Below, piece by piece: positions 28,755 through 51,608 of a stretch of DNA of 64,000 nucleotides (the stretch's first letter is position 1; each line of letters begins with the position of its first letter). Origin of the DNA: Streptomyces puniciscabiei (GTDB lineage: Bacteria > Actinomycetota > Actinomycetes > Streptomycetales > Streptomycetaceae); the NCBI RefSeq assembly GCF_006715785.1, contig NZ_VFNX01000005.1, positions 165,218-229,217 of the forward strand, read 5' to 3'. The notes beneath the pieces were generated by a model. That model ran no database searches and was not told the origin of the DNA. It saw only the letters and a program-made list of their open reading frames with translations. Made by a program: the position numbers and the translations under genes.

Positions 28755-28763
28755 GGCCGCAAC

Positions 28764-31758: not shown

Positions 31759-31764
31759 CGTATA

Positions 31765-34565: not shown

Positions 34566-34580
34566 CAGGGCGCTGCCCCC

Positions 34581-35203: not shown

Positions 35204-35233
35204 CGTCGTTCTTCGGGGTCTTCGGGCGGGTGG

Positions 35234-36754
35234 TCAGGGTCCAGTGGTGGGGGTCTGGACGAAGGCCGGAGGCGGCACGAAGCCGTCTACTTCCCGGCCC
35301 AGCAGGGCGGCGAACTCGATGGTGGTGAGATCGCCCCCGCTCGGGCCCATGGCCTGCAGACCGATGGGCAGTCCGCTCCTGCCTCGGCGCACCGGGATGG
35401 TCGTCGCCGGCCCCCCGGAGACGTTGGCGACGGCGCTCCACTTGACCTGGTCCCAGTAAGGGCGTCGCACACCTTCGACTTCGAATGGCCGCCCGAACCA
35501 GTCGATCAGCTTGTTGTGGTGGGCGGGGGCGGCCGTCGGGGTGACCGGCATGAGCACGATGTCGAAGTCCTGGAAGAACTCGAACCATCGCTGCCGGATC
35601 TCATTGCGCACCATGTGGGCCTGCAGCCAGTGATAGTGGGACTGGAAGGTTCCGAGCAGGGCGGGACCGGCGTCACCCCGCGGGTGCTGGACGAACCGGG
35701 CCAGCACCGCGGCGCTGGAGGCAGGAGCGAGGCCGGTGCGGTCGCCCGCGCCGAAGAGCAGGGGCTGGAAGGCCTTCTCGTGATTCGTCGCGATGTCGAC
35801 AGGGAGGCCGGCGGGCTGGACCGTGATCTTCGCGCCGGCCGCCCGCAGCACAGTGACTGCATCGTCCACGGCTGCCGCGACGTCGCTGTCGACGGGACAC
35901 GCGGGATCCTCACTCCAGACGGCGACCCGGAAGTCGGCGAGCTTGGTCGCGCGCGGCGGTGCGAGTGTGTAGCTGAAACCGCCGTCGTAGTCGGCGGGCC
36001 CGACCGTTGCCCGCAAGATCGGGACGAGGTCACGGGCGTCGCGGACCTGCGCGCCGCCGCAGCCCATGTCGGCCTCGGTCCATCGTCCCGGGCCCGGGCC
36101 GTAGGGCACATGCCCGATGAGGGGTATGGACCGCCAGGTCGACTTGTGCCCGTACAGGCCGTTGAAGTGGGACGGGATCCTGGTCGATCCGCCGATTTCC
36201 GAGCCGAAGTCGAACGCCGTTAGGCCCGCGGCGGTGGCGACGGCGCCGCCCCCGGCGGATCCGCCCGAGGTACGGGTCGTGTCCCACGGGTTCGATGAAG
36301 GACCGAACACCGGGTTGTCGGCCTGGACGTCCTGGTTACCCGGAGGCATGTTGCTCTTCCCCATGATCACGGCACCGGCCGAACGCAGCCGCTTGACCGC
36401 CTCGGCGTCCTGGTCGGGCACGTAGTCCTTGAGGTCTGTTCGCCCGCAGACGGTGCGCATCCCGGCTGTCTCGAAGCTGTCCTTGACCGTGATGGGCACA
36501 CCGTGCAGAGGACCGAGGTCTCGCCCGGCCGCCCGCGCGGCGTCCGCTTCCCCGGCCTCGCGACGGGCCCGCTCGGGGTCAAGGGTCACCACCGCGTTCA
36601 ACACGGTGCTATGGGTGGCGATCCGCTCAAGATAGAGCTCGACGAGTTCTCGGCTCGAGATCTCACCCGCGGCCAGCGCGCGTGACTGCTCCACTGCGGG
36701 CTGGAAGGGGACGTCACTCACGGCATGCCTCATCTCTGACTCTGACGGCGCCAT
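35234..36754 (-). CDS. Amidase (amidase signature family)
   Basis: A 506-residue amidase with the Ser-Ser-Lys triad intact: Lys91 in GVPITVKDSF, Ser166 in RTSGGSAGGGAV and Ser190 in GSEIGGSTRIP. NMPPGNQDVQADNPVFG is conserved family sequence. It hydrolyses an amide to acid and ammonia in the cytoplasm; the substrate is unknown. ATG at 36754 is used; an internal ATG at 36733 (MRHAVSDVPFQ) is plausible, and no strong ribosome binding site separates them. The neighbouring broken acyl-CoA ligase suggests the two once formed an amide-to-acyl-CoA route. Confidence 0.92.
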   Translation of the reverse strand: MAPSESEMRHAVSDVPFQPAVEQSRALAAGEISSRELVELYLERIATHSTVLNAVVTLDPERARREAGEADAARAAGRDLGPLHGVPITVKDSFETAGMRTVCGRTDLKDYVPDQDAEAVKRLRSAGAVIMGKSNMPPGNQDVQADNPVFGPSSNPWDTTRTSGGSAGGGAVATAAGLTAFDFGSEIGGSTRIPSHFNGLYGHKSTWRSIPLIGHVPYGPGPGRWTEADMGCGGAQVRDARDLVPILRATVGPADYDGGFSYTLAPPRATKLADFRVAVWSEDPACPVDSDVAAAVDDAVTVLRAAGAKITVQPAGLPVDIATNHEKAFQPLLFGAGDRTGLAPASSAAVLARFVQHPRGDAGPALLGTFQSHYHWLQAHMVRNEIRQRWFEFFQDFDIVLMPVTPTAAPAHHNKLIDWFGRPFEVEGVRRPYWDQVKWSAVANVSGGPATTIPVRRGRSGLPIGLQAMGPSGGDLTTIEFAALLGREVDGFVPPPAFVQTPTTGP

Positions 36755-36843
36755 CAAATGTGAGTCATAACATTACATTCGACAGACCATAGGCTCGGGA
36801 TGACGTGCAAGGCAATGGCCCTGCGGAATGAACGGAGGATCCT

Positions 36844-37170
36844 GTGGCGTCAGAGGATCCTGTGGCATCAGGGGCCGACCTCGTCGCCAACGTCGTCGTA
36901 GAGGAGCTACGCATGCAGGCGGCGCGGCGCGGCACTCTGCGGCCCGGCTGCCCAGCTTCGAGGATCTCGTTCTCGGCTATCTGTCGCCCGAGCACCGGGA
37001 CCAGTGCGGCCTCGGATGTCCCTCCGGGCCCTGCTCGACTAGTTCGACCGCTGCGAAGGCCCAGGTCGCTGCAGCTGTCCCGCGCCGCCTTCGACTCGAA
37101 GCTCGCCGATGAGGTCCTCGAGAAGGGCATTGCGAAGGGCATCGAGAACGCCCTCGCGTTCATCGACTGA
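36844..37170 (+). pseudogene. Broken TetR regulator relic
   Basis: Fragments match the ligand domain of the TetR at 1315-1917: DLVANVVVEELRMQAARRGTL, then in another frame LSPEHRDQCGLGCPS, then ADEVLEKGIAKGIENALAF. The helix-turn-helix half is missing and there are at least two frameshifts and an internal deletion. It is evidence that this TetR subtype was once paired with the neighbouring amidase or SDR gene. Confidence 0.8.
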
Positions 37171-37181
37171 GCAGTGTGGGA

Positions 37182-38009
37182 TCAGGCCGGATCGACGAAT
37201 ATGTCGAGCGCGAGATCGCCTTCGAAGTCGGCAGGGCTGTAGACGGACAGGTCGGTGACGCCCTCGTCCGACAGGACCTCGTCGTCGATGAACAGGTTGG
37301 CGGTGCACTTCCGCGCGTCACGCGTGAGGATGGCGTACGCGGCGTCCGCCATGATCCGCGGACTACGGGCTTGTCCGGCGCCGCCGACCACGTTGCGCAC
37401 GGCGGCCGTGTCGATCAGGGTCCGCGGCCACAACGAGTTGGCGGCGATGCCGTCGGCGGCGAGCTCCTCGGCGAGCCCGATGGTGCACAGACTCATGCCG
37501 TACTTCGACAGCGTGTAACCGAGGTGCTTCCCCACCCAGTGCGGCGCGAGGTTCAACGGCGGGGAGAGCGTGAGGATATGCGGGTTGCCCGCTTTGCGCA
37601 GGTGCGGGATAGCGGCCTTGCTCAGCAGGAACGTGCCGCGCGTGTTGATGTCCTGCATCAGGTCGTACCGCTTCATCTCCAGCTGCTCCGACGACGACAG
37701 GTCGATGGCGCTGGCGTTGTTCACCACGATGTCTATGCCACCGAAGGCGCTGACCGCCGCGTTGACAGCGGTGCGCACATCGTCCTCGTCGCGGACGTCA
37801 CCGACGACGGCCAGCCCCTTGCCGCCCGCGCGCTCAATCTCGTCAACGGCGGTGTGGACCGTGCCTTCGAGCTTCGGATGCGGCACGGCGGTCTTGGCGA
37901 GCATCACCACGTTCGCACCGTCGCGAGCCGCGCGCAGAGCGATGGCGAGTCCGATGCCGCGGCTGCCTCCCGACATCAGGATGGTCTTGTCGGCCAGCGT
38001 CTGTGTCAT
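37182..38009 (-). CDS. SDR family oxidoreductase (HSDL2-like)
   Basis: A 275-residue short-chain dehydrogenase; the ATG at 38009 follows GGAGG. MSGGSRGIGLAIALRAARDGANVVMLAKT is the nucleotide-binding part; NNASAI replaces the usual NNAG; YTLSKYGMSL holds Tyr/Lys. The KTAVPHPKLEGTVHTA stretch is diagnostic of the HSDL2-like subgroup, usually linked to fatty acid metabolism. Divergent from the acyl-CoA dehydrogenase at 38073, a functional fit for an acyl chain pathway. Confidence 0.92.
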   Translation of the reverse strand: MTQTLADKTILMSGGSRGIGLAIALRAARDGANVVMLAKTAVPHPKLEGTVHTAVDEIERAGGKGLAVVGDVRDEDDVRTAVNAAVSAFGGIDIVVNNASAIDLSSSEQLEMKRYDLMQDINTRGTFLLSKAAIPHLRKAGNPHILTLSPPLNLAPHWVGKHLGYTLSKYGMSLCTIGLAEELAADGIAANSLWPRTLIDTAAVRNVVGGAGQARSPRIMADAAYAILTRDARKCTANLFIDDEVLSDEGVTDLSVYSPADFEGDLALDIFVDPA

Positions 38010-38036
38010 GGTCGAACCTCCAAAATAGATTGTCGA

Positions 38037-38062
38037 ACTAATGGTACGTGGTACTAATGGTA
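38037..38062. promoter_or_regulatory. Direct repeat ACTAATGGTA x2 in a divergent promoter
   Basis: Two exact copies of ACTAATGGTA (38037-38046, 38053-38062), spaced 16 bases start to start, in the 63-base spacer between the SDR and acyl-CoA dehydrogenase genes. It may bind the MarR protein encoded at 39433 or another regulator. Confidence 0.5.
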
Positions 38063-38072
38063 TCTTCCCCGT

Positions 38073-39299
38073 ATGACTTCCACTCCCACACGCCAGATCG
38101 ACCGGCTCTACCACGAGCTCCTCGCCCCCAAAGAGACACAGTCCGTTCGCGCTGCCGTGCGCCGGATCGCAGAGCACGAAGTGGCTCCCCACGCCGTGGC
38201 GATCGCGGGGGGCGACGAGCGCACGGACGGCTTTCCCCGGCATGTGTTTGACGCGCTTGCGTCGGCGGGCGTCTTCCGGATCCCCTTCCCCAGCGAGGTC
38301 GGCGGCGACGGTCTGACCCATCCGGCGAGCGCCACCGCCGCGGCCATCGAGGAACTGGCCTACTACTCCAGCAGCGTCGCGGCCGTCTTCGACGTGCACT
38401 GCATCCTGGCGGGCAACGCCCTGCGGCAGGGCACCGAGGAGCAGCAGCAGCGATGGCTGCGAAAGGTCGCGGAGGGCTCAGTGGTCGGCGCGTTCGCCAC
38501 CACCGAGCCGAACGCCTCAAGTGACCTGTCCCCGCAGGCGGTTCAGACCGAGGCGATACGCACCGAGGCCGGCTGGGTGCTGAACGGCCACAAGCGGTGG
38601 ATCTCCAACTCGCCCGTCGCCGGGTTCGTGGTGGTTCTCGCCCGCACCGGCACCCGGCTGAGCATGTTCATCGTCGACACGGCACTTCCCGGAGTGGAAG
38701 TCGGCCTTCCAGACCGCAAGATGGGCAACCGCGGCCAGCTCACCGCGGACATCCGCTTCACGGATGTGCACCTGACCGACGACGACCTTCTCGGTGGCGC
38801 CGAGGGACACGGACTACGCCATGCGCTGTCCACTCTGACCTACGGCCGGATCGGTATCGCGGCTGCCGGGGTCGGAATGGCGCAGGCCGCCTTCGACCAC
38901 ACCGTGGCCCACCTGTCGACGCGACACGCCTTCGGCAAGCCGGTGGCCGCCAACCAGCACTGGCAGTTCCTGCTCGCCGAACGGGCCACCGAGATCGAGA
39001 ACGCCCGCACCCTCTACACCAAGGCCGCCCTGCGCCTGGACGCGGGCAACCCGTCCCCGGAGCCCGAGGCCGCGATGGCGAAGTACTACGCCACCAAGCT
39101 GTCGGTGGACATGGCGCGCGACGCCGTCCAGGCCTTCGGAGGCCTCGGCTTCGCGCGCGAACTGGGTGCCGACGGCAGCCCCGGACCCGTCGAGGCGATC
39201 TACCGGGACAGCAAGATCGGCGAAATCTATGAGGGCACCAACGAGATCCAGAAGTGGGTCATAGCCCGGCAGATCTTCGGTCGGGCCATCGTCGGCTGA
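38073..39299 (+). CDS. Acyl-CoA dehydrogenase
   Basis: A 408-residue acyl-CoA dehydrogenase. The middle FAD-contact region VGAFATTEPNASSDLSPQAVQTEA and the hydrophobic binding run ANQHWQFLLAERATEIENARTL are family hallmarks, as is the C-terminal EAIYRDSKIGEIYEGTNEIQ, which includes the catalytic glutamate position. It oxidises an acyl-CoA to the trans-2-enoyl-CoA using FAD. Chain length is not inferable. Divergent SDR and downstream MarR frame a small acyl-CoA module. Confidence 0.93.
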   Translation: MTSTPTRQIDRLYHELLAPKETQSVRAAVRRIAEHEVAPHAVAIAGGDERTDGFPRHVFDALASAGVFRIPFPSEVGGDGLTHPASATAAAIEELAYYSSSVAAVFDVHCILAGNALRQGTEEQQQRWLRKVAEGSVVGAFATTEPNASSDLSPQAVQTEAIRTEAGWVLNGHKRWISNSPVAGFVVVLARTGTRLSMFIVDTALPGVEVGLPDRKMGNRGQLTADIRFTDVHLTDDDLLGGAEGHGLRHALSTLTYGRIGIAAAGVGMAQAAFDHTVAHLSTRHAFGKPVAANQHWQFLLAERATEIENARTLYTKAALRLDAGNPSPEPEAAMAKYYATKLSVDMARDAVQAFGGLGFARELGADGSPGPVEAIYRDSKIGEIYEGTNEIQKWVIARQIFGRAIVG

Positions 39300-39381
39300 C
39301 CACCCAGGACGCACCGGCCGTAAGCCGGCGGAAGGTGGGGAATCCCGCCGGCCTGCAGTGGTCCTGGTGCCTCGGGCGTTC

Positions 39382-39410
39382 TCGTACGATGGACAGGACC
39401 ATACGTACGA
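39382..39410. promoter_or_regulatory. MarR-type inverted repeat
   Basis: TCGTACG (39382-39388) plus ATGG mirror CCAT and CGTACGA (39404-39410) with one extra base on the right, upstream of the MarR gene. Typical MarR operators are palindromes of this length, so autoregulation is likely. Confidence 0.6.
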
Positions 39411-39432
39411 CTAACCATGGGCGGGATAAACA

Positions 39433-39927
39433 ATGTCCGAGGCTCCGCTGGTTCCGGGGACAGTGGCCGAACACACCATCTGCCTGCTGGTCAAACTCGG
39501 GCAGGTGGCGTTCAGGATCGCCGAGGACGGCATCGGCGGGACCGGCTTGCGGGTGCGGCATTACAGCGTCCTGCAGGCTTTGGCGGACAACGGTGCCATG
39601 CCGCAACTGGCACTTGGCTCGTTCCTGCGCATCGACCCCGCGACGATGGTGACGAGTCTCGACGACCTGGAGCGCGCCGGATACGCGGAGCGGACACGAG
39701 ATCCGCAGGATCGTCGCCGCTACGCCGTGGACATCACCGCCGAAGGGCGCAAGGTCCTGGCCCGCCTCAACCGCACGCTCGTCGATCTCGACGCCGAAAT
39801 CCTCGCAGACCTGGGCACCGCGGACCGACAGTCGCTTCACGTCCTGCTGGACAGTCTCGCCGGAAGTCCCGCTCTGACCTCCCTGTTCGACACCGTCCGG
39901 GAGCAGAACGGTGGGAAACGGGCTTAA
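39433..39927 (+). CDS. MarR family transcriptional regulator
   Basis: A 164-residue MarR-type protein: RHYSVLQALADNGAMPQLALGSFLRIDPATMVTSLDDLERAGYAERTRDPQDRRRYAVDIT is a full winged helix, with recognition helix and wing (DPQDRRRYAV). It dimerises through terminal helices. An inverted repeat precedes it. Following the acyl-CoA dehydrogenase on the same strand after 133 bases, it probably responds to a small aromatic or acyl ligand. Confidence 0.93.
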   Translation: MSEAPLVPGTVAEHTICLLVKLGQVAFRIAEDGIGGTGLRVRHYSVLQALADNGAMPQLALGSFLRIDPATMVTSLDDLERAGYAERTRDPQDRRRYAVDITAEGRKVLARLNRTLVDLDAEILADLGTADRQSLHVLLDSLAGSPALTSLFDTVREQNGGKRA

Positions 39928-40215
39928 CGGCTCTAGGGGATCGCCCCGGGGTATAGCGCTATGCCCCGGTTCTGGCGAAGTCGGCTTGCCGGGCCGTATG
40001 CCATCCGGCGGTCTCCGGCGGACTCGTTGTGGTGGGCAGGGGGCGCCCTGTTCGTAGGCCATGCGTCAATTGGGTCGAGCATGGGGCAACACCCGAGTCG
40101 CTGACCGTGATCGAGGTGTTCGTTCCCGGCAGGTTCGTCACCACGTTCGCCGAGCGGTTTGTGTGGTGGGCTCGGAGGGTTGGGCGACCGGGCTCCACGA
40201 AAAGTGCGCCGGTCG

Positions 40216-40573
40216 GCAGACTGAGTCTGGAGGGGCACGCGCTCGTCCCCGTCGAGGGGGGACGTCGTCTACAACGGCGTGCACCTCTCGCTCGCGGAAT
40301 CCGAGGGTGGTGGCCGCGACGCGCGAAGGGCACCCCGCCAAGTGAAGGCGCTCGGAGTGGAGTTCGTGGTGGCCGGCCACCAAGACCCGGCCCGCCCGGA
40401 CGACGCGGCCCACATCGGCCGCACGAGGCGCTACCTCGACGCTGCGGACCGGCAACCGAAGAACTCCACCACAACGATGGAGTTCTTTGAGGGGATGACG
40501 GGTTTCCACCCCGAGTGCATCAACCCGGGCGTGCTGTGGTCGGGAGCCCTCACGCTTTGTCCGGCGACTAGGT
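40216..40573 (+). pseudogene. Relic of an MBL-fold metallo-hydrolase
   Basis: Frames give LSLEGHALVPVE and, after a deletion near 40255, GDVVYNGVHLSLAESEGGG, then VKALGVEFVVAGHQDPARPDD and HPECINPGVLWSGA. These match the second half of MBL-fold hydrolases, including the AGH histidine. The N-terminal HxHxDH metal site is missing. The 280 bases between the MarR gene and this point contain no recognisable gene. Confidence 0.78.
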
Positions 40574-40802
40574 TCAGCAATGCTGATACCCCAGTCCCTC
40601 ACCTACTCGGCCAACCGTTCCTGCCCAGGAGGTCGAAGACGCGCGTTGTCCCTCTGCTTCGCCAACGATCGACACGATGGGGCTGTGACGGCTGGGTGGG
40701 ATCTGCCACGGACCGCCACACGGCACCGTCGCGCACCAGGCACACGAAGCGGAACGGAGAATGGCGTCGACGGCAGGGGCCGTCGGCGGCAGGATCCGCG
40801 GC

Positions 40803-41115
40803 TCAGGCCACAGGCACGGCGGGCTGGATGACGAGGGAGGCGTCACCACCCTGTACGACGTTTCGGATGCCGGCGGAGGTTTCGTGGGGCACTCCGAACG
40901 GGAGGGCGCTGACGTCGGACAGGTGTGCGAACTGCTTCGAGGTGAGTTGGACGTCCAGCGCACCCAGGTTGTCGTCGAGTTGCGCGAGATTGCGCGGGCC
41001 GATGATCGGGACGAACGAGGTGGACGCCTGGGCAGCACGCTCACGGACCCAGCCGACCGACACCTGGGCGGGCGTGGCGCCGCTCTCTTCGGCGATGGCC
41101 AGGGGGTCACTCAAA
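40803..41115 (-). pseudogene. C-terminal relic of an aldo/keto reductase
   Basis: The minus strand encodes AIAEESGATPAQVSVGWVRE and SFVPIIGPRNLAQLDDNLGAL, the NADPH-binding C-terminal part of aldo/keto reductases, ending in a stop at 40803. The barrel's N-terminal half, with the Asp-Tyr-Lys-His catalytic tetrad, is absent. The DNA between this relic and the metallo-hydrolase relic has no recognisable content. Confidence 0.82.
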
Positions 41116-41706
41116 GCAGCGGAAGTGTCCGGCCCGCGCCCACAGTTTCGCCGAAGTGAGGTTGCACCAGGAGAGGGAGGCGGAGACGCAGCGACAGATG
41201 AAGGGCGTGTCGGTTGCCGCGGTGACCCTTGACTGCGGCCTCCCCGCCAGGGGCGACGAATGGCGTACGGCAGCATTGGCCCCTGCTCGGTCTGTTGAGG
41301 AGCTTCAAGAAGGTGAGCAGCACCTCTGAGTAGCCTGCAGCGGCTGGCGACGCGCCCCGTGCCGACTGCGCCAGCGGTCGGCTGTGCGTAGGGCTGGTGA
41401 CCTTGACCTTGCACTGCCGGTGCTGAACAGTGCGGTGGTGGCGGAGCGGATTTCGTCGACAACCGGAAGCGTCCCGGACGATCAGCTTCCCAGCGTCGTA
41501 CGACTGGACGATATTTGACGAGATACGCTTCGGTCGCGTGACCTTAGGGGCGTATTTCGGTGGGGTCCGTGCAGTCAGTGACGGCGACGCTGTAGGAGTC
41601 TGCTGGCCGGGGGCAGGGTCTCATCGAGGCATAGGGGAGCTCACGGGATGTCGCACACTGGGCGCAGAGGCACAGCCGGGCTGAAGGTAGGCTTGGTGGT
41701 CGGTTG
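41116..41706. other. Gene-free flank beside the Tn7-like operon, possible transposon left end
   Basis: No family-like frame is visible in 590 bases. The stretch contains GTCGTACGAC (a perfect palindrome near 41495) and the inverted pair ATACGC/GCGTAT near 41524-41554. TnsB-binding repeats and a TGT...ACA terminus would be expected somewhere here or in the other flank, but I could not match the two flanks convincingly by eye. Confidence 0.4.
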
Positions 41707-43626
41707 TCAGGGACGCTTGCGAGTAGCTGGTCCCTCAGCTCCATCGGCTCCCTCGTTCAGCGCTTGGGCGAAGTCATCGGCGTATTCGCTGATGCGCTGA
41801 AGGATGCGGAGTCTGGCGCCTCTGCGGTTGCTGGGGGTCTGCAACTGTCCGATGGCGGAGACCAAGGGCTTGGTACTTTGCCTCGCTCTGCGAAGTGCTT
41901 CGATCGATGGGCTGTGCAGATGGTCGCCCTGGGTGACTCGAGCCCACACGAGCGCGGTTACCGCAGCCCGGGTCAAGGGGGACTCCACGTTGGCAAGGCG
42001 GACCAGGCCTTCCGTGAGCGCAGCAAGGTCCTTGACAGGGATCTGCCAGGTACGCAGCGCTCGACGACGCGCAGCGAAATTCACGTTCAGTGGATCAGCG
42101 TCCAATTCCTGCGCGAGGGTCTCGACTGCAGTGTCGAGCAGTGGCCAGAGACCGCCGGGCAGCAGGCTTCGCTTGAGGACGGCAAGGCTACGTTGGGCGG
42201 CGATCCACGGTACTCCCAGGATGACGGCGCATTGTGGCCAGGTTCCGCCGCCAGCCATTTCGACGAGCTTGAGGGAGGCTACTCGGCGTAGATGCCGTGG
42301 CTTCCAGACATCACCGGAGTCCCACAGGGACGTCAGATCACCGAAGTGCGCACCGATCCATGCCTCGGGCAAGAGAGCGGGGACATGCTCGATCCCGAAA
42401 TGGACCTGACGTGAGGGAACGTGCTGTCTGGCGTGGTGATGGCCACCCGCACGGTTGAAGCCAAGGGACCGCTGGGCCAGGGCTCTTGACAGGTCTGGGG
42501 AGACGTCCATGCGTCGGAAGGCGGCACCGGTGTTCGCTTCGTTTCGCGTGAACGCTGCGGTCGCGAGCGGCTGGATCCGCTCGCGAAGGGCCAGGTCGTC
42601 CTGGCCCCGGCCGCCGAGCAGGGTGTCCGCGGCCAGCAGCAGTGCTCCGCACTCGGCCGGGTCTTTGGGCGCCGCCCATGCATCACGGACGCGCCTGCCC
42701 GGGCTGCGGTTTTCCCGGAGGGCGGTCCAGGCGGCAACGTGGCGGGCAATCAGGTCGGCGACGGCGCTGGAGGGGGCAAAGCGTGCACTGTCGGGCCAGC
42801 TGAGCCGGATGAGTTGAGCGGCTGCTATCAGGTCGGAAAAGAAGTGCTGCTCTGGATTCGAGTAGTTGCTGCTGATCGCGGGCGGATGTTCAGTGGGCGT
42901 CAAATGCCGGTCGATACGTCGCTGTAGGGCGAGCATCATGACCAGGTCACTGTCCGGTTGCTCGGCTACCCGGGCCGTCTGGTCGAGTCGCGCTGCACAC
43001 GGCGGTATCCGGACGCTGGTACCGACAGGGCCGGGCGCGAGGCGATGGCGGCACTGCGCGGGGTGTAGTCCACCGATCGTGCGCTGTGTGATGAGCCCTT
43101 GCCGTTCGGTGTTCGAGGACCGGTTCGGATGACCTCCGCACTGTGGACATCCGCTCTCCAGGACGCGGCTGTGGGCAGTGCACGCGAAGGAGACCGGGAC
43201 ATGCCAGCGCAGTCTCCACGGGCCTCCGTACGCGCTCTGAATCGCGCTTCCGTCTCCAGCCAGGCAGTCGGGGCAGTAACGGCTGGACAAGCTGAAGGCC
43301 CAGGTGCGTCGGGCGGAGGCCATATTGCGACTGCCGCCCAGACGCATGTTGGCCAGTGGCGGATAGGCCGCGGCCATGGCTGACAGGGTGAGCGCGTCGG
43401 CTTCGCCTTCGCGGAGGGATGCAGCTGCCTCGAGAGACTCGGTGGCTTCTGCGGACAAGGTGATCAAGTACTCGGCTGGCAATCGGTGTTGGTGACGGCT
43501 CAGTCCGCACAGCGCGGCGATCCTGGCCGGCGAGCGATCCAGTCGGTAGGCAAGACGCAGGAGCAGGCCTGGCAGGGACTCTTCCGGCAGCGGAGCGAGA
43601 CTTCGTGCCAGTGGACGGGTCGTCAA
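41707..43626 (-). CDS. tniQ: TniQ family protein, second copy (target-site selection)
   Basis: A 639-residue TniQ/TnsD-type protein starting at TTG overlapping the previous stop (TTGA). N-terminal PLARSLAPLPEESLPGLLLRLAYRL is the TniQ opening. The zinc site SSRYCPDCLAGDG, a spacer with HVPVSF, and CTAHSRVLESGCPQCGG give a CxxC...C..H...CxxC pattern. The C-terminal 350 residues are helical and presumably bind target DNA as in TnsD. It differs substantially from the adjacent paralogue, so the two probably recognise different targets. Last gene of the operon. Confidence 0.9.
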   Translation of the reverse strand: MTTRPLARSLAPLPEESLPGLLLRLAYRLDRSPARIAALCGLSRHQHRLPAEYLITLSAEATESLEAAASLREGEADALTLSAMAAAYPPLANMRLGGSRNMASARRTWAFSLSSRYCPDCLAGDGSAIQSAYGGPWRLRWHVPVSFACTAHSRVLESGCPQCGGHPNRSSNTERQGLITQRTIGGLHPAQCRHRLAPGPVGTSVRIPPCAARLDQTARVAEQPDSDLVMMLALQRRIDRHLTPTEHPPAISSNYSNPEQHFFSDLIAAAQLIRLSWPDSARFAPSSAVADLIARHVAAWTALRENRSPGRRVRDAWAAPKDPAECGALLLAADTLLGGRGQDDLALRERIQPLATAAFTRNEANTGAAFRRMDVSPDLSRALAQRSLGFNRAGGHHHARQHVPSRQVHFGIEHVPALLPEAWIGAHFGDLTSLWDSGDVWKPRHLRRVASLKLVEMAGGGTWPQCAVILGVPWIAAQRSLAVLKRSLLPGGLWPLLDTAVETLAQELDADPLNVNFAARRRALRTWQIPVKDLAALTEGLVRLANVESPLTRAAVTALVWARVTQGDHLHSPSIEALRRARQSTKPLVSAIGQLQTPSNRRGARLRILQRISEYADDFAQALNEGADGAEGPATRKRP

Positions 43627-45539
43627 TGGACCGGACCCTGCTGTCGTGCGCCAGTGGGGGTGGTGGGGTTCGGCACTTCGATTCGCAGGTCAGTTCCTTC
43701 GTCGCAGGCTCGGGCGAGCTGGGCAGCGTAGGATGCCAGCCACCGACTCAGCGTCGTGTAGGACGGCCTGCGCTGAGTCCTGCTTGCGAATAGCGCTGCC
43801 TCTTCGGTCAGTCGGCGGGGAGAGTACGAAGCGGAGCGGCGATGGGTCACCGTCGGGCTGTGAAGGTAGCTGGCCTGGTTGACCATGCACCAAACGACGG
43901 CCTCGCCGACTCGGGGGTCCCCCGTTGCCTGGCGCTGCTCAAGACCGGGTATGCCCTCGCACAATGCTTTCCAATCTGCGAGCGAAAGACACCAGTCGGC
44001 TGTGGAACGGCGGCGGTGGGCGTAGTTGACTCGGCGGTCCTGTTCATGCAGTTGATGTGCAACCAGGTCGACCGCGTCCTCAAATACAGGCCAGAGGCCA
44101 GGAGTTGTCAGCTGCTTACCCAGCACATTCATCGTCCGGCGAGCGCTATTCTGAGGGATCCCCAGAGCCTGCGCGCACGCTGGCCATGTCTGATCACAGA
44201 CCAACTCGGCGAGCCTCAATGAGGCAGCCCAACGCAGATGGCGCTCCAAGAGCGTGGTCATCTTCGGCAGGCGATGCACGAGAGGCTGGAAGTACGCGTC
44301 GAACCATTCTCTTGGGAGGAGAGGAGGGATTTCGGCAGTGCTGAAACGGTAGAAATTCGGGGCGACACGCAATATGGAGCGCTTCTGGAATCCGTAGACG
44401 CGCTGTGCGGTGGCGCGCAGCAAGATAGCCGAGACGTTGCTGTCCTTGAAGAGCTTGTCGCCGATGGAGGCCGACCGGCGGTACGCCTCGCGAGCGAGGG
44501 GCTCGATACGCTCACGCAGAGGGACAAGAGCCCGATCGCCGAGCGCAGTCGCGGCTGCGAGCAGAAGGGCCGAGGTTTCGGCCGTTCCGCGGGGTGCGCT
44601 ACGCCGGATCTGAAGTCCGCGTTGAGACGGATTGTGCAGATAGGGCGTGGCGTACTCGTCCACGAGGTCCGCCAGTGCTGTGGAGGGGAGGAACGAGGCG
44701 CCCTTCGGCCAGCTCAGCGTGATCAGGCGCGCGGTCGTGATCAGGTCGGGAAAGTAGGTGTGCGGTGTCCTTCTGTCGGCAGTACACACCAGTTGACCTG
44801 GATCCAGCCGCAGGTTCAGGTTGTGCTGGAGGTCAAGGATGTGCTGCATGTCCAGTGGCGACAGCACGGCGGCAACGTCTCGCGGGGCGTCCAGCCGTGC
44901 GCCGCACGGCACGGCGCGGGCCCGCGGTTTGGGCAGTGGTCTGGGAGCCCGGTTGCGGCACTGGCTCGGGTGTAGTCCGGAGACGTGGGGAATCTGGACA
45001 AGGCTGTATCGCCGGATAACGCGTCCGCTGAGCGGCTGAGTGCATCGGGGGCAGGTGTTTTCGAGGAGGCACAAGTGCTGCGTGCAGGCGAACGTGACGG
45101 GCAGATGCCAGCGCAGTTGCCAGGCACCGCCGAAGGCCTGCTGCACGGGACTGCCGTCCCCTCGCAGGCAGTGGGGGCAGTAACGGCTGTCGGGATTCGT
45201 GGCCCAGTTGATGTGGGACTTGGATCCGACGTCTGCCTTGCCGGCGCGAAGCTTGGCAAGCGGTGTGTAGGTTGTGGCGAGATCCTGCAAGGTCAGGGCC
45301 TGAACCTCGGACATGGTCAGGTGCGCGGCCCGGGCCAGTTGTTCGGCGGTTTCCGGGTTCAGTCCGCGAAGTTGGTCCTGGGGGATGCTGTCGCTTCGGC
45401 AGGTCAGGCCACACAGGGTTGCCACGCGCTGAGGGGTGCATCCCATTCGATAGGACAGGCGCAGGACGAAACCGGCCAAAGATTCACCGGGCAGCGGATC
45501 GAGGCTGCGTGCAAGCGGACGAAGAGTCGGTTGGATCAT
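43623..45539 (-). CDS. tniQ: TniQ family protein, first copy (target-site selection)
   Basis: A 638-residue TniQ/TnsD-type protein; ATG overlaps the TnsC stop (ATGA). Opening PLARSLDPLPGESLAGFVLRLSYRMG; zinc site DSRYCPHCLRGDG, HLPVTFACTQH, ENTCPRCTQ. Another conserved block, PLLPREWFDAYFQPL, also occurs in the second TniQ as ALLPEAWIGAHFGDL, confirming a tandem duplication followed by divergence. TniQ proteins bring the TnsC filament to a target; in Tn7 TnsD binds a specific chromosomal site. No CRISPR-type partner is present. Confidence 0.9.
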   Translation of the reverse strand: MIQPTLRPLARSLDPLPGESLAGFVLRLSYRMGCTPQRVATLCGLTCRSDSIPQDQLRGLNPETAEQLARAAHLTMSEVQALTLQDLATTYTPLAKLRAGKADVGSKSHINWATNPDSRYCPHCLRGDGSPVQQAFGGAWQLRWHLPVTFACTQHLCLLENTCPRCTQPLSGRVIRRYSLVQIPHVSGLHPSQCRNRAPRPLPKPRARAVPCGARLDAPRDVAAVLSPLDMQHILDLQHNLNLRLDPGQLVCTADRRTPHTYFPDLITTARLITLSWPKGASFLPSTALADLVDEYATPYLHNPSQRGLQIRRSAPRGTAETSALLLAAATALGDRALVPLRERIEPLAREAYRRSASIGDKLFKDSNVSAILLRATAQRVYGFQKRSILRVAPNFYRFSTAEIPPLLPREWFDAYFQPLVHRLPKMTTLLERHLRWAASLRLAELVCDQTWPACAQALGIPQNSARRTMNVLGKQLTTPGLWPVFEDAVDLVAHQLHEQDRRVNYAHRRRSTADWCLSLADWKALCEGIPGLEQRQATGDPRVGEAVVWCMVNQASYLHSPTVTHRRSASYSPRRLTEEAALFASRTQRRPSYTTLSRWLASYAAQLARACDEGTDLRIEVPNPTTPTGARQQGPVH

Positions 45540-46798
45540 CCGGCGGACTCCGCTGCCGGTCCCGAGTCGTCGAACACGGTGTTCCTGCCCTTCGGCTTCT
45601 TCCGGGGCCGAGACTCGACCGGCGGGATCAGTGGCTGTTCACCGGAATCGGCGTCCAGGTCGGGCAAATCGGTCGGGAGGACGGCACAGCGGTTGAGTAG
45701 CTCTTTGCTCAGCCGCTCGCTGCCGTCCTCGATCGCGACTCGGCAGCCTCGCTGCACCAGCTTCTCCAGGAGCCCGACGACCCCATTCGTTCGCTGGAAC
45801 AGATACTCAGGCATGGATCCGGATGTGAGCATGCCCTCGGTGTCGTGCAGGAGCCGCAAGCTCTTCTCGAGCGCCGCCAGGTGGTCGACCCAGGCCTTGA
45901 TTTGCCCGGGAGTGTCGTAGTCGAACGGCTGCAAATTGACCATTTCGAAGCGCCGCTCATGCTGGGTCGCAGCGTCCGGATTTGGGCTGCGCCCGCGGTC
46001 TTTCACTGGAGGAATGACCCACTGCTTGGCAACCGGATCGAAGCTGCCGCGGCGCAATAGTCCGGAAGTGGGGATACCGACACCCACCAGAATGAGGGTG
46101 ACGGACATGCTCATCACCTCCAAGAGAAGGTCCAAGACGTCCTGGTCGCTCTCGCGATGCAGTTTGAGTCGCGTGATGTCGTCGATCACGAGTGCCTTGG
46201 TGGCGTGCGCGGCGATGGCGGCGTTCACCGTCCGGATCAAGTCTTCCTGGCGCATGTTCTTGTAATCCTCGCCGTAGAAGTCGAGGATGCGCTGGCAGGT
46301 GGAGACGGGGGTTGCCTTGACCGGGCAGCGCACATACGCAACAGGAGCGAGGAGATCCCTGGTGCCGGCCATGGCCTCCGGATTCATGTACTCGTTCACC
46401 TCCAGCCATTCTTCCTCGAAGGCCGCGATCGCCGCGCAGACCGTTTCGGTCTTTCCCTGGGCGCCACCCCCGTTGACCATGACCCCGGTCCGGATTCCGG
46501 CCTTGTGGCTGTAGGCGGCGTCCTCGATCCGTGCTTTCACCAGCCACGCCACGGCATCGCCCATTGGGGTGGACTGCACTGGCAGGCTGCTGTGGGTGGC
46601 CAGACGGTGCAGGTCGTGAATTCGCCGTCGGCGGGGCGTCAACTGCAGATATTGCTCCGTGCTCAGTATGGGCGCCGGCACGAAAAGCTCGCGGGTACGG
46701 ACCCACCGGTGCCAGCCCTCCACCCGGGTCCGGTCGATCGGCGGCCCAGGCAGGAACGAAGTGACGGCCCGGGCGGGCGGCTTGGTGGGCTCGCTCAC
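45536..46798 (-). CDS. tniB: TnsC/TniB-type AAA+ ATPase
   Basis: A 420-residue AAA+ protein from a GTG that overlaps the TnsB stop (GTGA). Walker A is NGGGAQGKTET (about 109-119), Walker B is ALVIDD (202-207), and LILVGVGIPTSGLL is the sensor-1 region with the TniB-like following segment. In Tn7-like systems this ATPase forms a filament on target DNA, links TniQ to the transposase and sets target immunity. The C-terminal 40 residues are Pro/Arg/Lys-rich and probably disordered, perhaps contacting the TniQ proteins. Confidence 0.92.
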   Translation of the reverse strand: MSEPTKPPARAVTSFLPGPPIDRTRVEGWHRWVRTRELFVPAPILSTEQYLQLTPRRRRIHDLHRLATHSSLPVQSTPMGDAVAWLVKARIEDAAYSHKAGIRTGVMVNGGGAQGKTETVCAAIAAFEEEWLEVNEYMNPEAMAGTRDLLAPVAYVRCPVKATPVSTCQRILDFYGEDYKNMRQEDLIRTVNAAIAAHATKALVIDDITRLKLHRESDQDVLDLLLEVMSMSVTLILVGVGIPTSGLLRRGSFDPVAKQWVIPPVKDRGRSPNPDAATQHERRFEMVNLQPFDYDTPGQIKAWVDHLAALEKSLRLLHDTEGMLTSGSMPEYLFQRTNGVVGLLEKLVQRGCRVAIEDGSERLSKELLNRCAVLPTDLPDLDADSGEQPLIPPVESRPRKKPKGRNTVFDDSGPAAESAG

Positions 46799-49098
46799 GG
46801 CTGGCCTCCAGGCTCAGCGGCGGATTCGTCCTCATCGTCGAGCAGGTCCATCAGGCTGCGCCCCCGCAACCGCTGGCCAAGGGTGGACGTCGCAGCCGGT
46901 TCCTCGGAGACTGCCTCCCGTCGGCGTCGGCGCTCGCCGTCGATCGCAGCCCGGCCCTGCTCGGCCCGCTCACGCCATCGCAACGTGACGACATTGTCGA
47001 CCTCACCGCCTTGGCGTGGCACAAACGGTGCCACCTCGTCGGCGCAGGCAGGGGCAGGGGAGGGCTTCGGTCGGTCGGCTGCCGCCGCTGTGGCCTGGGC
47101 CTCTTCGCGGGCGTGCTCGGTTCGCTGGGCCTTGGTCATACGGGTGGGCCATTGGTCCACGGGGACATTGCTCCCGATCAAGTCCAGCAACAGGGGCAGC
47201 AGATCTTTGTCGGACTTCGGCTTCAGCCCCTGATTGCGCAGCTCGCGCATTACCTGCCGTACACGGGCGTCACTGAACGCGGGCATTCGGCCCTCGTCCG
47301 GAAGGCCCACCCAACGCAACTGATGCCATTCATGAGTGAGCGGATCTTGGAAGAAAACGAAACATGGATCACGTGGATCCCGGTGGAACACGTACTTGTT
47401 CTTCGCCGCCCCGCCCCGGCCAGACGGACGGAAACGCCACTCGTTCAGTGCCTCCCCGTCGTACCAGAGATTTCTGATTTTTACGCCGCGTCGGCCGTGA
47501 ATCATCACCCGATGAGTAGGAAGCAGTTGGTAGTACAACTCCGCCGGCGGGATCTGCAGTGCAAAGCCGCCCTGGGCCATGGACGCCGCGACCAGGGTAT
47601 TCGGACTGTGATCACCAGCAGGATCCCAACTGGGTGCGTAGGAACCGAACCTGCGGTTCTGCCAGATCCTGACGACCCAGGTGGCAATCAAGTGCTCCAT
47701 CTCCGCCACGGTGATGCATGCGTCACTTTCCGGATCGATGCCGCGATCTGAGCTGTCGACGCCCTGGTAGCCCGGAAGAATCCGGAACAGCAGGGACTGG
47801 ATCGCGCCGAAGGCTCGCTCCACCGCCTGCTTGTCGGTCGGCCGCAGCACCCGACTCGGCCGGATCGTCGCGCCGATCACCCGCTGAACCTCGATCAGGT
47901 GGTGATTCTTGTACACCGAGCCGTGGTCGGTGGTCACGGTCTCCGGGGCGAAGAACGGTAGCCCAGCGACCTTGCCATCAGTGAATTCCGCGATCACGCT
48001 GCCGAGGACCCCGGGATAGGCCCACGCCATCTCCTCGCCCCAGTCCGGGCGCATGGGCAGCGGCATCATGACGTCCCGCAAGATCATGGCGACGTCTACT
48101 GAGGTGTCCGAGACCAACGTGAGTCGGAAAGCCACGATCGAATGCGTGTATACGTCCAGAGCCAGCGTCAGATGCACTGACACCGGGTCGCCAAAGACCT
48201 GCTCACGGACTTTGACCGGGAGTACCGTCGTGTCGAGCGCCACTACTTGCCCGGGCCGACTGACCACCACGTGCCTACCTGTCGCCACCGCTTGAGCCCG
48301 TGCAGCTGAAACGGCATAGCGCTGACGGGCTCCGGTTGATCCGAACCACTCCTTCCACACGACCCGGAGGGTTTCGTAACTGGGTACCGGCTCGTCCTTC
48401 CCGAACTCCTCGCGTACGTACTGATGGATCAGCCGTTCACGGTCTTTTGCTGTCAGCTTGGAGCGGTGCAGGGTCTCGTGGCGTACCGCAAAGATCGCCT
48501 CACGTACCGCGGCTGAGATCTGACGGCCGGTCGCCTCCCGCAGCCACCGGTCGTCCGCACATCCCACCGGCCCGAAGCGGCGGCGGTCCAGATCCCAGCG
48601 GATCAGAGTGCGGTAGCTGACCTTGTCCAAGCAGTGGGCGGCGGCCAGATCCGGGTTGCGTATCGTGTCCTGCCGCAGCTCCCGCACCTTGGCATGACGG
48701 CGCTCGGTCAACGTGGTGGAGTTCGGATCGTATTGCGGCTTCGGCTCTCCGGGGAGCGCGTTCAGCGGATCACCGCTGCGAAACCCGGTCTCCACCTCCC
48801 GCAAATGGTCCACCCGCAACATCACGAGTGGCCGCTTGCTCGGCGGCAGATCGAGAACGCCCTTTGGCTGCCGCCCGCGGCTGGCGGCCGGAAGGTCCTT
48901 CCTCGTTCGTGTCGACGGCCTGATGTTCGGATGGTGCATCAACTGCCGCACCGACGTCTTCCAAGCCTCATGCTCGGGCCGGACCAGCACCACCTTTCCG
49001 ACTTGGGGTTGAAATGCCTCCACTGTCCACGGCACGCCGTTCACGACGAACTCGTTTCCCGGCGAGAGGTCCCAGGCAACCGCAGCGGTCACTGTCAC
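46795..49098 (-). CDS. tnsB: TnsB/Mu-type DDE transposase
   Basis: A 767-residue transposase of the TnsB/TniA/MuA family. GTG at 49098 is chosen because it overlaps the TnsA-like stop (GTGA) and homology begins there. The RNase H-like catalytic core has VVALDTTVLPVKV (Asp289), VTTDHGSVYKNHH (Asp391) and PTDKQAVERAFG (Glu427). N-terminal helix-turn-helix domains precede it (KVSYRTLIRWDLDRRR; VPSYETLRVVWKEWF) and a Mu-type beta-barrel follows. It cuts and joins the 3' ends of the element. The C-terminal acidic tail (LMDLLDDEDESAAE) may bind TnsC. Confidence 0.93.
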   Translation of the reverse strand: MTVTAAVAWDLSPGNEFVVNGVPWTVEAFQPQVGKVVLVRPEHEAWKTSVRQLMHHPNIRPSTRTRKDLPAASRGRQPKGVLDLPPSKRPLVMLRVDHLREVETGFRSGDPLNALPGEPKPQYDPNSTTLTERRHAKVRELRQDTIRNPDLAAAHCLDKVSYRTLIRWDLDRRRFGPVGCADDRWLREATGRQISAAVREAIFAVRHETLHRSKLTAKDRERLIHQYVREEFGKDEPVPSYETLRVVWKEWFGSTGARQRYAVSAARAQAVATGRHVVVSRPGQVVALDTTVLPVKVREQVFGDPVSVHLTLALDVYTHSIVAFRLTLVSDTSVDVAMILRDVMMPLPMRPDWGEEMAWAYPGVLGSVIAEFTDGKVAGLPFFAPETVTTDHGSVYKNHHLIEVQRVIGATIRPSRVLRPTDKQAVERAFGAIQSLLFRILPGYQGVDSSDRGIDPESDACITVAEMEHLIATWVVRIWQNRRFGSYAPSWDPAGDHSPNTLVAASMAQGGFALQIPPAELYYQLLPTHRVMIHGRRGVKIRNLWYDGEALNEWRFRPSGRGGAAKNKYVFHRDPRDPCFVFFQDPLTHEWHQLRWVGLPDEGRMPAFSDARVRQVMRELRNQGLKPKSDKDLLPLLLDLIGSNVPVDQWPTRMTKAQRTEHAREEAQATAAAADRPKPSPAPACADEVAPFVPRQGGEVDNVVTLRWRERAEQGRAAIDGERRRRREAVSEEPAATSTLGQRLRGRSLMDLLDDEDESAAEPGGQP

Positions 49099-49976
49099 CA
49101 ACTCCCACTCGCCGGGCGGCGAGAGAGGGACAGGCGGATCGTGCTCGCGTCGGTCAGAGGGCCAGAAATCTGCAGGCCCAATTGGCGATGCCACAACAGA
49201 TGGATCGCATGAGCCCGGGCAACGGCTTCCAGGCTGCAGCGCCTTACCAGGGTCCCGAACGGCTGTGGACCGTCTTCTGCCGCCAGAAGCAGCTGCTCCT
49301 GTAGCCGCAGTGGGTCGGTCAAGTGCCTTCGTCCGGCGGACAGCGTATCGATCAGGCCTACTACATGGTCGTGCCAACCAGCAACCACCGCGTAGTTCCA
49401 CCCAGCAACCAGGGCGACCTCGGCCGCAGCGGCGAACTTGACCTCGTCCTCAGGTTCTATCCGTGCTGAAGGCCGCACATCGATGAGCCACGGCGTGTCG
49501 TCGGTCAGCAGAAGATAGTCCGGGATGTGCTCGACGCTGCCGTTGACGCTCTGGAAGCGCAGACGGAACGGTTGAGTCAGCGCCTCCACAAGAGATCCTG
49601 AGAAGTCAGCTGCCAGAAGGAGGAGTTCCTCCTCGAAACTCTCGAAACCGTGGTGACGGTCGGTACTGACCAGATATCCAAGGCCGGGGCGATGCCACTG
49701 ATCGGTACGCCAAGTGAAGCGGCGCACAGGAACACTTGAGAGCACGTCGACCTCGCCCAGGTTCCTGACGGTGCAACCGACGAGCGTCCGTCCGAAACGC
49801 CACGCCGTAGTCCACCGGGCAGTCCAGTCCGACGGCATGGCCAGTTGACTGACGGCGTCAGCTGAGATGGCATGCATTCGGGCGAGATCGCGCAATGTCG
49901 ATGTGTCCGACCAGGGGACAGTAGCGCTCGATGCGCCAACTGGCGAGTGATCGAGCAGCGGGGGCTGGGGAGCCAC
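49095..49976 (-). CDS. tnsA: TnsA-like transposase endonuclease subunit
   Basis: A 293-residue protein starting at GTG 49976 behind AAGGCGGAG. The PD-(D/E)xK core is visible: FESFEEELLLL (acidic residue of the first helix), EHIPDYLLL (Asp) and WLIDVRPSARI, where D-V-R stands where the classical E/Q-x-K would be. In Tn7, TnsA nicks the 5' ends so that transposition is a clean cut-and-paste. The C-terminal half (LRLQEQLLLAAE...) has a winged-helix feel as in TnsA. First gene of the operon; a long inverted repeat lies upstream. Confidence 0.85.
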   Translation of the reverse strand: MAPQPPLLDHSPVGASSATVPWSDTSTLRDLARMHAISADAVSQLAMPSDWTARWTTAWRFGRTLVGCTVRNLGEVDVLSSVPVRRFTWRTDQWHRPGLGYLVSTDRHHGFESFEEELLLLAADFSGSLVEALTQPFRLRFQSVNGSVEHIPDYLLLTDDTPWLIDVRPSARIEPEDEVKFAAAAEVALVAGWNYAVVAGWHDHVVGLIDTLSAGRRHLTDPLRLQEQLLLAAEDGPQPFGTLVRRCSLEAVARAHAIHLLWHRQLGLQISGPLTDASTIRLSLSRRPASGSW

Positions 49977-50320
49977 GTCTCCGCCTTACATGCCAAGAGT
50001 GCGATGGATTACGAAGATCATCTTAAGGGCCTCTGGATCTTCGTAACGCCGCCTCATCGCACCGGGATACCAGGGGTGCGCCTCCCACGGTCATCACGCA
50101 GCACCCTTGCTGGGCGGTCTCAGGGAGATGTCCCGAGGTGCTGAGCCCCCCACTGATCAAGTCCAGCAAAGGCTGACGGTCCAACCAGGGGGCGCGTAGG
50201 CCGGAGGTGAGTCGCCATATGGCAGTGATCTGAGCGGGGAAGAGCGGAGGCCCCCGCGACACGCTCACCCGAGCAGCGTCGTCGGCAGATAGAAGACCGC
50301 CGCCCCGTTTTCGAGGGAGT
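49977..50320. other. Upstream flank of the Tn7-like operon, possible right end
   Basis: No coding frame was recognised. The flank contains the operon promoter, the inverted repeat at 49999-50062 and then about 250 GC-rich bases up to an IS5-family insertion. The transposon's right terminus may lie here or beyond the IS. Confidence 0.45.
49999..50062. promoter_or_regulatory. 64-bp two-part inverted repeat upstream of tnsA
   Basis: Outer arms GTGCGATG (49999-50006) and CATCGCAC (50055-50062) and inner arms TTACGAAGATC (50009-50019) and GATCTTCGTAA (50036-50046) are all perfect matches, separated by 2 and 8 bases on the two sides, with a 16-base loop. It lies 23 bases upstream of the tnsA start. 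It could be an operator pair, a transposase-binding site or an RNA hairpin in the leader of the operon. Confidence 0.75.
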
Positions 50321-50340
50321 GAGCCTTTTCAGCGTGGCCA
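50321..50340. repeat. IS5-family left terminal inverted repeat
   Basis: It pairs with 51175-51194; 17 of the first 19 bases match, starting GAGCCTTTTCA. The AGT duplication is immediately outside. Confidence 0.88.
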
Positions 50341-50436
50341 CCGATCGGGTGATGACCTTGGTGCCCGCAACGGACAGGGCTCCCGTGCCGTTGGGTGAGG
50401 TGTTCGAAGTCTCAACCTGCCGGTCCAGGAGCCCTG

Positions 50437-51186
50437 TTGGTTCCCTATCCTGCCGCACTCGACCTGCCTCATGCGCTGGTCGAGTGGGTCACGATGCTTA
50501 TCGTCACCCGCGAGGGTGACCGCCGCTGCAAGCTCCCGCCGCACCAGCGCGCCCTCGTCGCTCTCGCCTACCTGCGCAAGCACGAGACTCTCGCGCAGAT
50601 CGCCGCCGGGTTCGGCATATCCGTCGGCACCGCCCACGCCTACACCACCGCCGTCGTGCGGCTCCTCGCCGACCGGGCGCCGGGCCTGCTCAAGACCCTG
50701 CGCGAGCACGACCCGGACTACGTACTCCTGGACGGCACCCTCAGCGAGTGCGACCGCCTGGGCGACGGACGCGCCGATTACTCCCACAAGCACCGGCGCC
50801 ACGGCGTGAACGTGCAGGTCGTCACCGATCCCGTAGGCCAGCTTCTGTGGATCTCGCCGGCCTTGCCGGGCCGTGCTCACGATCTGACCGCCGCACGCAC
50901 CCACCGCATCATCCGAATCTGCGAACGCCAGGGCGTCCCGATCGTCGCCGACCGCGCCTACATCGGCGCCGGCTCCTGGGCCACCACCGCCATCCGCCGC
51001 CCGCCCAACGGCGAACTGTCACCGACCGAGCGGACGCTGAACCGGGCACTCGCCCAGGCCCGCGCTCCCGTCGAACGAGGTGTCGCCCGCCTGAAGTCCT
51101 GGCGGATCTTCCGCCGCAGCCGCTGCAGCCCGAACCGCATGACGGACATCGCCGCCGCAGTCCTCACCCTGGAGAGGCAACGTTGA
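50437..51186 (+). CDS. IS5-family DDE transposase
   Basis: A 249-residue transposase. TTG at 50437 is used because GGAG lies 6 bases before it and family-like sequence ([17 protein letters not shown]) starts there. An N-terminal helix-turn-helix, [24 protein letters not shown], is followed by DDE catalytic residues: [25 protein letters not shown] and [17 protein letters not shown]. The last motif is the IS5 Y/ExxxR/K form. All three acidic positions are present, so it may be active. Confidence 0.92.
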
Positions 51187-51194
51187 AAAGGCTC
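51175..51194. repeat. IS5-family right terminal inverted repeat
   Basis: Inverted partner of 50321-50340. It overlaps the last codons of the transposase gene, and AGT follows at 51195. Confidence 0.88.
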
Positions 51195-51407
51195 AGTGAT
51201 CCAGCGGCCCTCTGGGAAGGATGCCGACGTGACGTCGTGGTTGGGGATGGGCCATTGGAGGCAACCGGAGGAGGAAGGGGCGTCGTCAGTGCAGGCAGGG
51301 AGGCCTTCGAATCTGTACCGATGTGCCAAGAATCCTCGGCAGACAGCTCCCCATACTGCTGAATGTGGTTGGCAAAAGTGCAGGTCAGCGCAGTGCTCCG
51401 GAGACAC
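51195..51407. other. Gap after the IS, nothing recognised
   Basis: The 213 bases continue whatever lay beside the Tn7-like module before the IS inserted. No gene-like frame or clear transposon terminus was seen. Confidence 0.4.
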
Positions 51408-51608
51408 CTAGCGTCTGTGGTCACACACGTCGATGACGAGGACAGTGTGCGCGGCCTCGAACAGCTGCTGCCCGGCGACCGAGGTGCCCAGGGCGTCCGC
51501 CGGCCTGTTGAGCGTCGCCGAGGTCGGGTCGGCAGGCCCTTCCTCCAGGTGGGCCAGGTAGCCGGGCGCCATCCGGGCCCGGCCTGCTGTTTCCTCCGGG
51601 GCCGGCAC
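51408..51608 (-). pseudogene. Relic of an XRE helix-turn-helix (pyridoxamine-oxidase-fused) protein
   Basis: The minus strand gives EETAGRARMAPGYLAHLEEG and NRPADALGTSVA, matching the N-terminal XRE domain of the Streptomyces regulators fused to a flavin/pyridoxamine oxidase domain (normally AGMAPGYLAYLEERP..P...L.RLADALGTS). After GTSVA it runs into unrelated sequence and stops; the oxidase domain is gone. Confidence 0.72.

Follow-up and report, generated by a model that had tools for sequence, protein, structure and literature searches.

Tn7 enters its attachment site, attTn7, at glmS by means of TnsA, TnsB, TnsC and the target selector TnsD, and the insertion point lies about 20 bp past the glmS stop codon and about 25 bp from the TnsD site in the account given in PMC2918618. 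According to the conventions set out in PMC11406308, the right end of such an element is the one upstream of the tns genes; the side that faces the attachment site varies, and it tends to be the end in which the sites overlap. For actinobacteria, the text of Benler et al. 2021 describes a Tn7-like clade and reports that none of its members has been characterised by experiment (PMC8649781). Another actinobacterial Tn7-like element, Tn7706 of Rhodococcus erythropolis NI86/21, is described as having tnsA, tnsB, tniB and tniQ (PMC12915292). The presence of two TniQ/TnsD proteins is itself a known layout, with 998 loci given by Faure et al. 2023 (PMC10293859).

Here we describe an element of this kind from Streptomyces puniciscabiei. 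The stretch of DNA that was analysed (64,000 nucleotides; hereafter the window) is the right end of the 229,217-bp contig C5. With a probability of about 0.8, we read the locus as a complete Tn7-like transposon, 68.6 kb long and site-specific, whose TniQ2 protein reads the 3' end of an acyl-CoA dehydrogenase gene and which inserts directly past the stop codon of that gene.

Operon, ends and cargo

Five genes, tnsA, tnsB, tnsC, tniQ1 and tniQ2, comprise one minus-strand operon at window positions 41707-49976, and their reading frames overlap or abut. An initial annotation, made from the sequence alone, had named these five genes with their positions and strand, and our frame calls and family searches agree with it on all of the genes and protein types. 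The tnsA product (49095..49976) matches the NCBIfam family NF033179, 'TnsA-like heteromeric transposase endonuclease subunit', with 114.2 bits against a cut-off of 110. The tnsB frame extends over 46795..49401, with a likely start near 49098-49101, and its product matches in sequence the solved TnsB chains of ShCAST (7svw) and Tn6677 (9y7b) as well as a PADLOC TnsB model; its sole Pfam match, to rve, is sub-threshold. Numbered from the GTG at 49098, the DDE triad of this TnsB is D289, D391 and E427, exactly the residues named in the initial annotation (290, 392 and 428 if numbered one codon earlier). The tnsC gene (45536..46798) encodes an AAA ATPase with AAA_22 (PF13401) over the cut-off and GGAQGKT as its Walker A motif, and no match was found among solved TnsC structures at E 0.1. 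Both TniQ1 (638 aa; 43623..45539) and TniQ2 (639 aa; 41707..43626) exceed the cut-off of PF06527, with 78.4 and 68.5 bits, respectively. The sole further TniQ match in the source genome, at C1:4526702, has 27.8 bits against a cut-off of 27.

Two side observations concern tnsA. The TnsA of Tn7 has a catalytic lysine at a position where all of the 14 TnsA proteins that we aligned (the window and 13 relatives) have arginine, the segment after the conserved PD being D-V/I-R-P in 14/14. Just 5' of tnsA, at window positions 50009-50046, is an 11-bp inverted repeat (TTACGAAGATC / GATCTTCGTAA) with an operator-like look.

We found relatives of the window TnsB at seven loci in genome contigs (L004-L010). 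In L004, L005, L006 and L010, similarity to the window upstream of tnsA extends to 51425-51441, the terminus TGTGACCAC (read inwards) stands at the base matching 51425, and the DNA beyond differs in each. This conserved terminus defines the right end of the element, at 51196..51425, where the minus strand reads TGTGACCAC. A 16-position end motif, built from such right ends and from the ends of a related plasmid element (pFRL, see below), was then run over the whole of C5. It matched the right end at 16/16 positions and one place, C5:148005, at 15/16, and there were 14 matches of 13/16. The left end was thus located at C5:148005, 17,212 bases before window base 1, from the motif of other ends, and it was noticed only afterwards that its flank, CACGT (C5:148000-148004, outside the window), is identical to the right flank at 51426..51430 (plus strand). 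CACGT borders both ends of an element with a total length of 68,638 bp, and both ends start TGTGACC. The initial annotation, which had not found the ends and had considered that the element might be partly degraded, proposed to look for a 5-bp duplication and TGT...ACA ends; both exist, all five genes are open, and partial degradation is not supported. A shorter candidate of about 10 kb, with an end near 41.3 kb where L004 is similar to the window (41327-41605), was dropped once the left end had been found.

Site-like repeats are present in the left end at positions 17, 37 and 90, of which those at 17 and 37 are closely spaced, and the right end has none at the threshold used for the left end. 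Within the right-end region lies an insertion sequence of the IS5 family (50320..51195, plus strand; family matches), which is missing from L005 and, in comparison with L005, is bounded by a 3-bp AGT repeat. The G+C content is about 63-69% in the element and rises to 72-78% on its right side (window 51000-52500). From the left edge of the insertion sequence to the contig end (window 50318-64000, 13.7 kb), the DNA recurs as a 99.8% copy in reverse orientation at C2:937235-950932, which may be a chromosome-end inverted repeat. This copy was considered as an empty site and rejected, since the duplicated 13.7 kb contain the right end as well.

Cargo had been thought absent, and about 59 kb of it, mainly metabolic genes, was found between the operon and the left end (window 1..41700, continuing to C5:148005; genes were called by simple GC-frame selection, and family scans covered part of the called frames). 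Adjoining the left end are a transposase fragment, a LacI-type regulator, a Gfo/Idh/MocA oxidoreductase, two xylose-isomerase-like proteins, an aldehyde dehydrogenase, a TPP enzyme, a KduI/IolB protein and a Cgl0159-like protein. We take this group to be an inositol-catabolism cluster, and it is followed by a sugar-type permease and a binding protein. The cargo in the window includes an acyl-CoA synthetase-like enzyme, enoyl-CoA hydratases, alpha/beta hydrolases, dehydrogenases, an amidase, a second acyl-CoA dehydrogenase and regulators. No CRISPR-like direct repeats (at least 22 nt, within 120 nt) occur across the element, and no Cas protein was found among the called proteins scanned with Pfam and NCBIfam or among the nine proteins scanned with PADLOC, which has Cas models; a CRISPR-guided element was rejected on these grounds. 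Nor does the window contain a tRNA or any Rfam match, and a tRNA was therefore rejected as the target. The initial annotation, too, had seen no Cas or tRNA context.

The attachment site at acd

The CACGT of the left end directly abuts the TAG of a gene encoding a 406-aa acyl-CoA dehydrogenase (named acd here), the product of which has the C-terminus IGLGMPRVRR. Where the initial annotation had seen no context that could describe the target logic, the 3' end of acd was thus found as the target. The left-end pattern was matched in all seven genomes of the TnsB-relative loci, and in six of them the left end is at acd, at stop+5 in L004, L006, L007, L008 and L010 and at stop+3 in L005. In the L009 genome, the near-match is not at acd and lies 5 bp from the right end of another element (L078, L083), a spacing as expected if an older element had occupied this address and a newer one had then entered it. 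The flanking 5-bp repeats are equal in four of the five acd elements with both ends known (the window, L004, L006 and L010) and unequal in L005; the right ends of the L007 and L008 elements were looked for and not found.

Empty sites in relatives, a check proposed in the initial annotation, were found as uninterrupted junctions in G007 and G177, where CCTGC and GGGC are all that stands between the acd stop and the ATG of a gene for an MpaB-like oxygenase. G001 and G121 resemble these two, with other bases between the genes. Since the right end of the L006 element is followed by TCTGC and then by GGGCATG of the MpaB-like gene, the empty site reads across the insertion. On the evidence of G007 and G177, the MpaB-like gene of the window (PF09995; 57077..57943, plus strand, likely start 57099) is the natural downstream neighbour of acd. 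A second right-end-like terminus (57002..57091, minus strand, terminus at 57091; 13/16 motif positions) is as far from the ATG of this gene as the right end is in L006, and a similar sequence exists in L044. It is probably left from an older element, and the 5.7 kb between 51430 and 57091 would then be a remnant of an earlier occupant of the acd site. A simple two-step tandem history is not supported, as the flanks differ (CACGT at the element and CCTTT at 57091). Farther right, window 57759-60284 encodes a fusion of a Ser/Thr kinase with a tetratricopeptide array, and the DNA of this gene contains strong internal repeats.

We then investigated how common this occupation is. A pattern consisting of the acd C-terminus, the stop, five bases and TGYGACC, with one mismatch allowed, matched in 25 of 199 Streptomyces genomes, and the reversed-pattern control gave 0. 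The TnsB-site core AGTTGKCAC lies within 60 bases in 17 of these 25 matches and is absent in eight. In an order-wide sample, which shares some genomes with the set of 199 and was counted without the core filter, the pattern was present in 19 of 147 genomes, all of them Streptomyces, and in 0 of the 15 genomes of other genera. The acd motif is present in 104 of 150 genomes. Among 30 acd loci, selected by search listing and not drawn at random, the left end lies 5-7 nt past the acd stop in nine, compared with 0 of 10,428 shifted control windows of the same loci. The element ends form two subfamilies, TGTGACCAC and TGTGACGAGG. In G146, which belongs to the TGTGACGAGG subfamily, tnsA, tnsB, tnsC and two tniQ genes are beside the acd left end (67% identity for TnsB and 68% for TnsC). 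Seven of the 15 genomes picked for their acd ends gave no TniQ match, and G016 and G171 retain TniQ2-like fragments only; many acd islands are decayed, or the TniQ link is unproven in the seven TniQ-less genomes.

Related elements are also found on plasmids. The Streptomyces linear plasmids pFRL3, pFRL4 and pFRL6 (L022, L023 and L024) carry one 30-kb element at three sites, the copies being 99-100% identical in 250-base blocks near the element ends. Both of its ends start TGCGAC, and its 5-bp flanking repeats (CCACC, TCGGC and GGCAC) are equal in 3/3. On all three plasmids, the left end adjoins fxlM at its 3' end. The distance past the annotated stop is 12 nt in pFRL3, and the frames annotated as fxlM in pFRL4 and pFRL6 enter the left end by about 20 nt. 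The cargo includes phoX, pst and arsenic genes. No credible 5-bp flank pair was found for the elements of L182, L183 and L173. In an S. nojiriensis plasmid (L021, 18967-27085), the end of another such element, 8.1 kb long, coincides with the stop codon of a DNA methylase gene, the first bases of the left end supplying the stop that is annotated for this gene.

Two TniQ proteins and alternative readings

A second tree was made from 25 TniQ sequences; the TniQ2 of L010, which has a broken frame, was left out of both this tree and the first, and the plasmid TniQs of L179, L181 and L184 were left out of the second. The TniQ2 proteins of the window, L004, L006, L008, G146, G139 and G156, which are all of the seven placed acd elements, form one clade (support 100/99) together with that of G116, which is not one of the placed elements, and this clade includes none of the eight TniQs from elements elsewhere (pFRL, L021, L180, L182, L183, G177 and two of G099). 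In G139 and G156, TniQ2 and the acd left end are linked by a shared contig only, about 89 kb and about 79 kb apart, and the right end seen in G156 has a different flank. Because the clade holds TniQ2 of all placed acd elements and none from elsewhere, this correlation suggests that TniQ2 is probably the reader of the acd address. A label test on the 'acd' rows gave five changes, a number as low in 9 of 500 shuffles, and since it pools the TniQ1 and TniQ2 types, it is no separate test of the TniQ2 clade. An AlphaFold model of TniQ2 has a mean pLDDT of 86.5, and its first part aligns with TnsD and TniQ chains; Foldseek alone returned nothing for this model at E 0.001 or better, and a weak DnaA-like match is the only one of the C-terminal part. 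By analogy with Tn7, the binding site of TniQ2 would lie in the last codons of acd, and TniQ1 may serve as a second selector.

The pFRL TniQ pairs in the tree with the TniQ of G177, a genome with an empty acd site. From this pairing, the G177 element was predicted to use fxlM as its address, which was not confirmed on inspection. Several TniQ relatives of 719-864 aa (P0086, P0090, P0096, P0109, P0112 and others) have a predicted extra PF13340 domain ahead of or beside TniQ.

Alternatively, acd might be read by TniQ1, or by an obligatory pair of TniQ1 and TniQ2, instead of TniQ2 alone. Both proteins are indeed encoded in the acd elements of the window, L004, L006, L008 and G146, and the TniQ adjoining the left end in G139 is of the TniQ1 type. 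However, the TniQ1 clade (support 98/99) takes in a protein of G099, whose element is far from its acd gene (the left end of that element was searched for and not found), and the second TniQ of G156 falls outside the clade. TniQ1 also diverges faster: the window protein is 34-43% identical to the second TniQs of G146, G139, G156 and G116, versus 48-55% for TniQ2 and its counterparts in the same four genomes. We regard this alternative as doubtful and retain TniQ2 as the probable reader.

It is still less likely that the locus is an inherited island whose ends are intact and which is no longer mobile. The five open genes and the intact ends and duplication argue against such an island, and although the operon is at the same site in most relatives, the 5-bp flank repeats and the cargo vary among genomes, with other DNA beside the operon in close relatives. 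This outweighs, in our opinion, the IS5-family element between tnsA and the right terminus and the fact that no second-site copy with identical letters was seen in the source genome. The initial annotation would have doubted a transposon if the operon had stood at one site in all relatives without mobile ends, and we found both ends and empty sites.

That the insertions mark a general hotspot picked by structure (an intergenic gap or a terminator) and not by the acd sequence is very improbable. In 9/9 clear cases, the element begins 5-7 nt past the acd stop while the bases at the insertion point vary, and in three plasmids the sister element is found at a different gene, fxlM, again at the 3' end. 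Against this, the plasmid elements of the window's kind in L179 and L180 sit between genes and not at gene 3' ends (these two sites were themselves found by searching for equal 5-bp flanks). Given L179 and L180, targeting of 3' ends by every element of this kind is not supported.

In the transposition reaction that we propose by homology, TnsB would bind the repeated sites at both ends and, with TnsA, excise the element, and TnsC would pass on the target choice. The TnsD-like TniQ2 would recognise the conserved 3' coding end of acd. As the ends, the flanks and the empty sites show, insertion takes place directly past the acd stop, duplicates 5 bp and turns the left end towards the gene; acd remains intact, and the downstream MpaB-like gene is displaced.

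Position among Tn7-like elements

The self-contained heteromeric transposon of the initial annotation is supported, as every Tn7-like feature that we tested is present: a TnsB-type DDE transposase, TnsC in the same operon, a TniQ/TnsD protein, a 5-bp duplication, TGT/ACA ends with repeated sites (in the left end) and, judged by its family match, a putative TnsA subunit. In kind, the element is known and Tn7-like, and its mode of action resembles the TnsD pathway of Tn7. It shares with Tn7 the set of TnsA, TnsB, TnsC and a TniQ/TnsD selector, the 5-bp duplication and the insertion just past a conserved protein-coding gene that is left intact, as these are described in PMC2918618 and PMC11406308. 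It is not a prototypic glmS-targeting Tn7, because the target is acd, and insertion is directly behind the stop instead of about 20 bp past it. Tn7 faces its gene with the right end, whereas here the left end is proximal; since this end also has the closely spaced repeats, the orientation agrees with the rule given in PMC11406308, unlike that of Tn7 itself. The element further differs in having a second full-length TniQ, and no TnsE was found in the family scans made. Without CRISPR-like repeats and Cas among the scanned proteins, it does not qualify as a CRISPR-associated transposon either.

Compared with the pFRL elements, TnsB is 77% and TnsC 72% identical, the ends are colinear, both have 5-bp repeats, and the left end lies close to a gene's 3' end, at about 20 nt or less; the pFRL elements differ in their single TniQ, in fxlM as the gene and in their phosphate and arsenic cargo. 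The clade in the text of Benler et al. likewise has actinobacterial hosts (PMC8649781). In the loci described by Faure et al., the second TniQ is usually much smaller, whereas both are about 640 aa here (PMC10293859). Tn7706, by its description (PMC12915292), differs in being 19.4 kb long and multicopy. We found no acd attachment site in our searches of open-licence PMC texts. As far as searched, three things are apparently new: acd as an address, how often it is used in Streptomyces, and the two full-length TniQs, one conserved and one diversifying.

More tentatively, these elements may form a two-address Tn7-like family that uses neither TnsE nor CRISPR. The conserved TniQ2 would direct them to chromosomal acd, and the fast-diversifying, full-length TniQ1 to a changing second address, for example a plasmid gene. 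In such a family, acd could be a main docking bay of Streptomyces for large metabolic islands, filled in about one third of the listed acd genes and re-used by successive elements.

The actinobacterial Tn7-like elements gain a testable address, with its distance, orientation, probable reader and empty sites. A mechanism is thereby offered for a recurrent insertion hotspot of Streptomyces that receives islands with a large metabolic load. The system may also provide a protein-programmed insertion tool native to high-GC actinomycetes.
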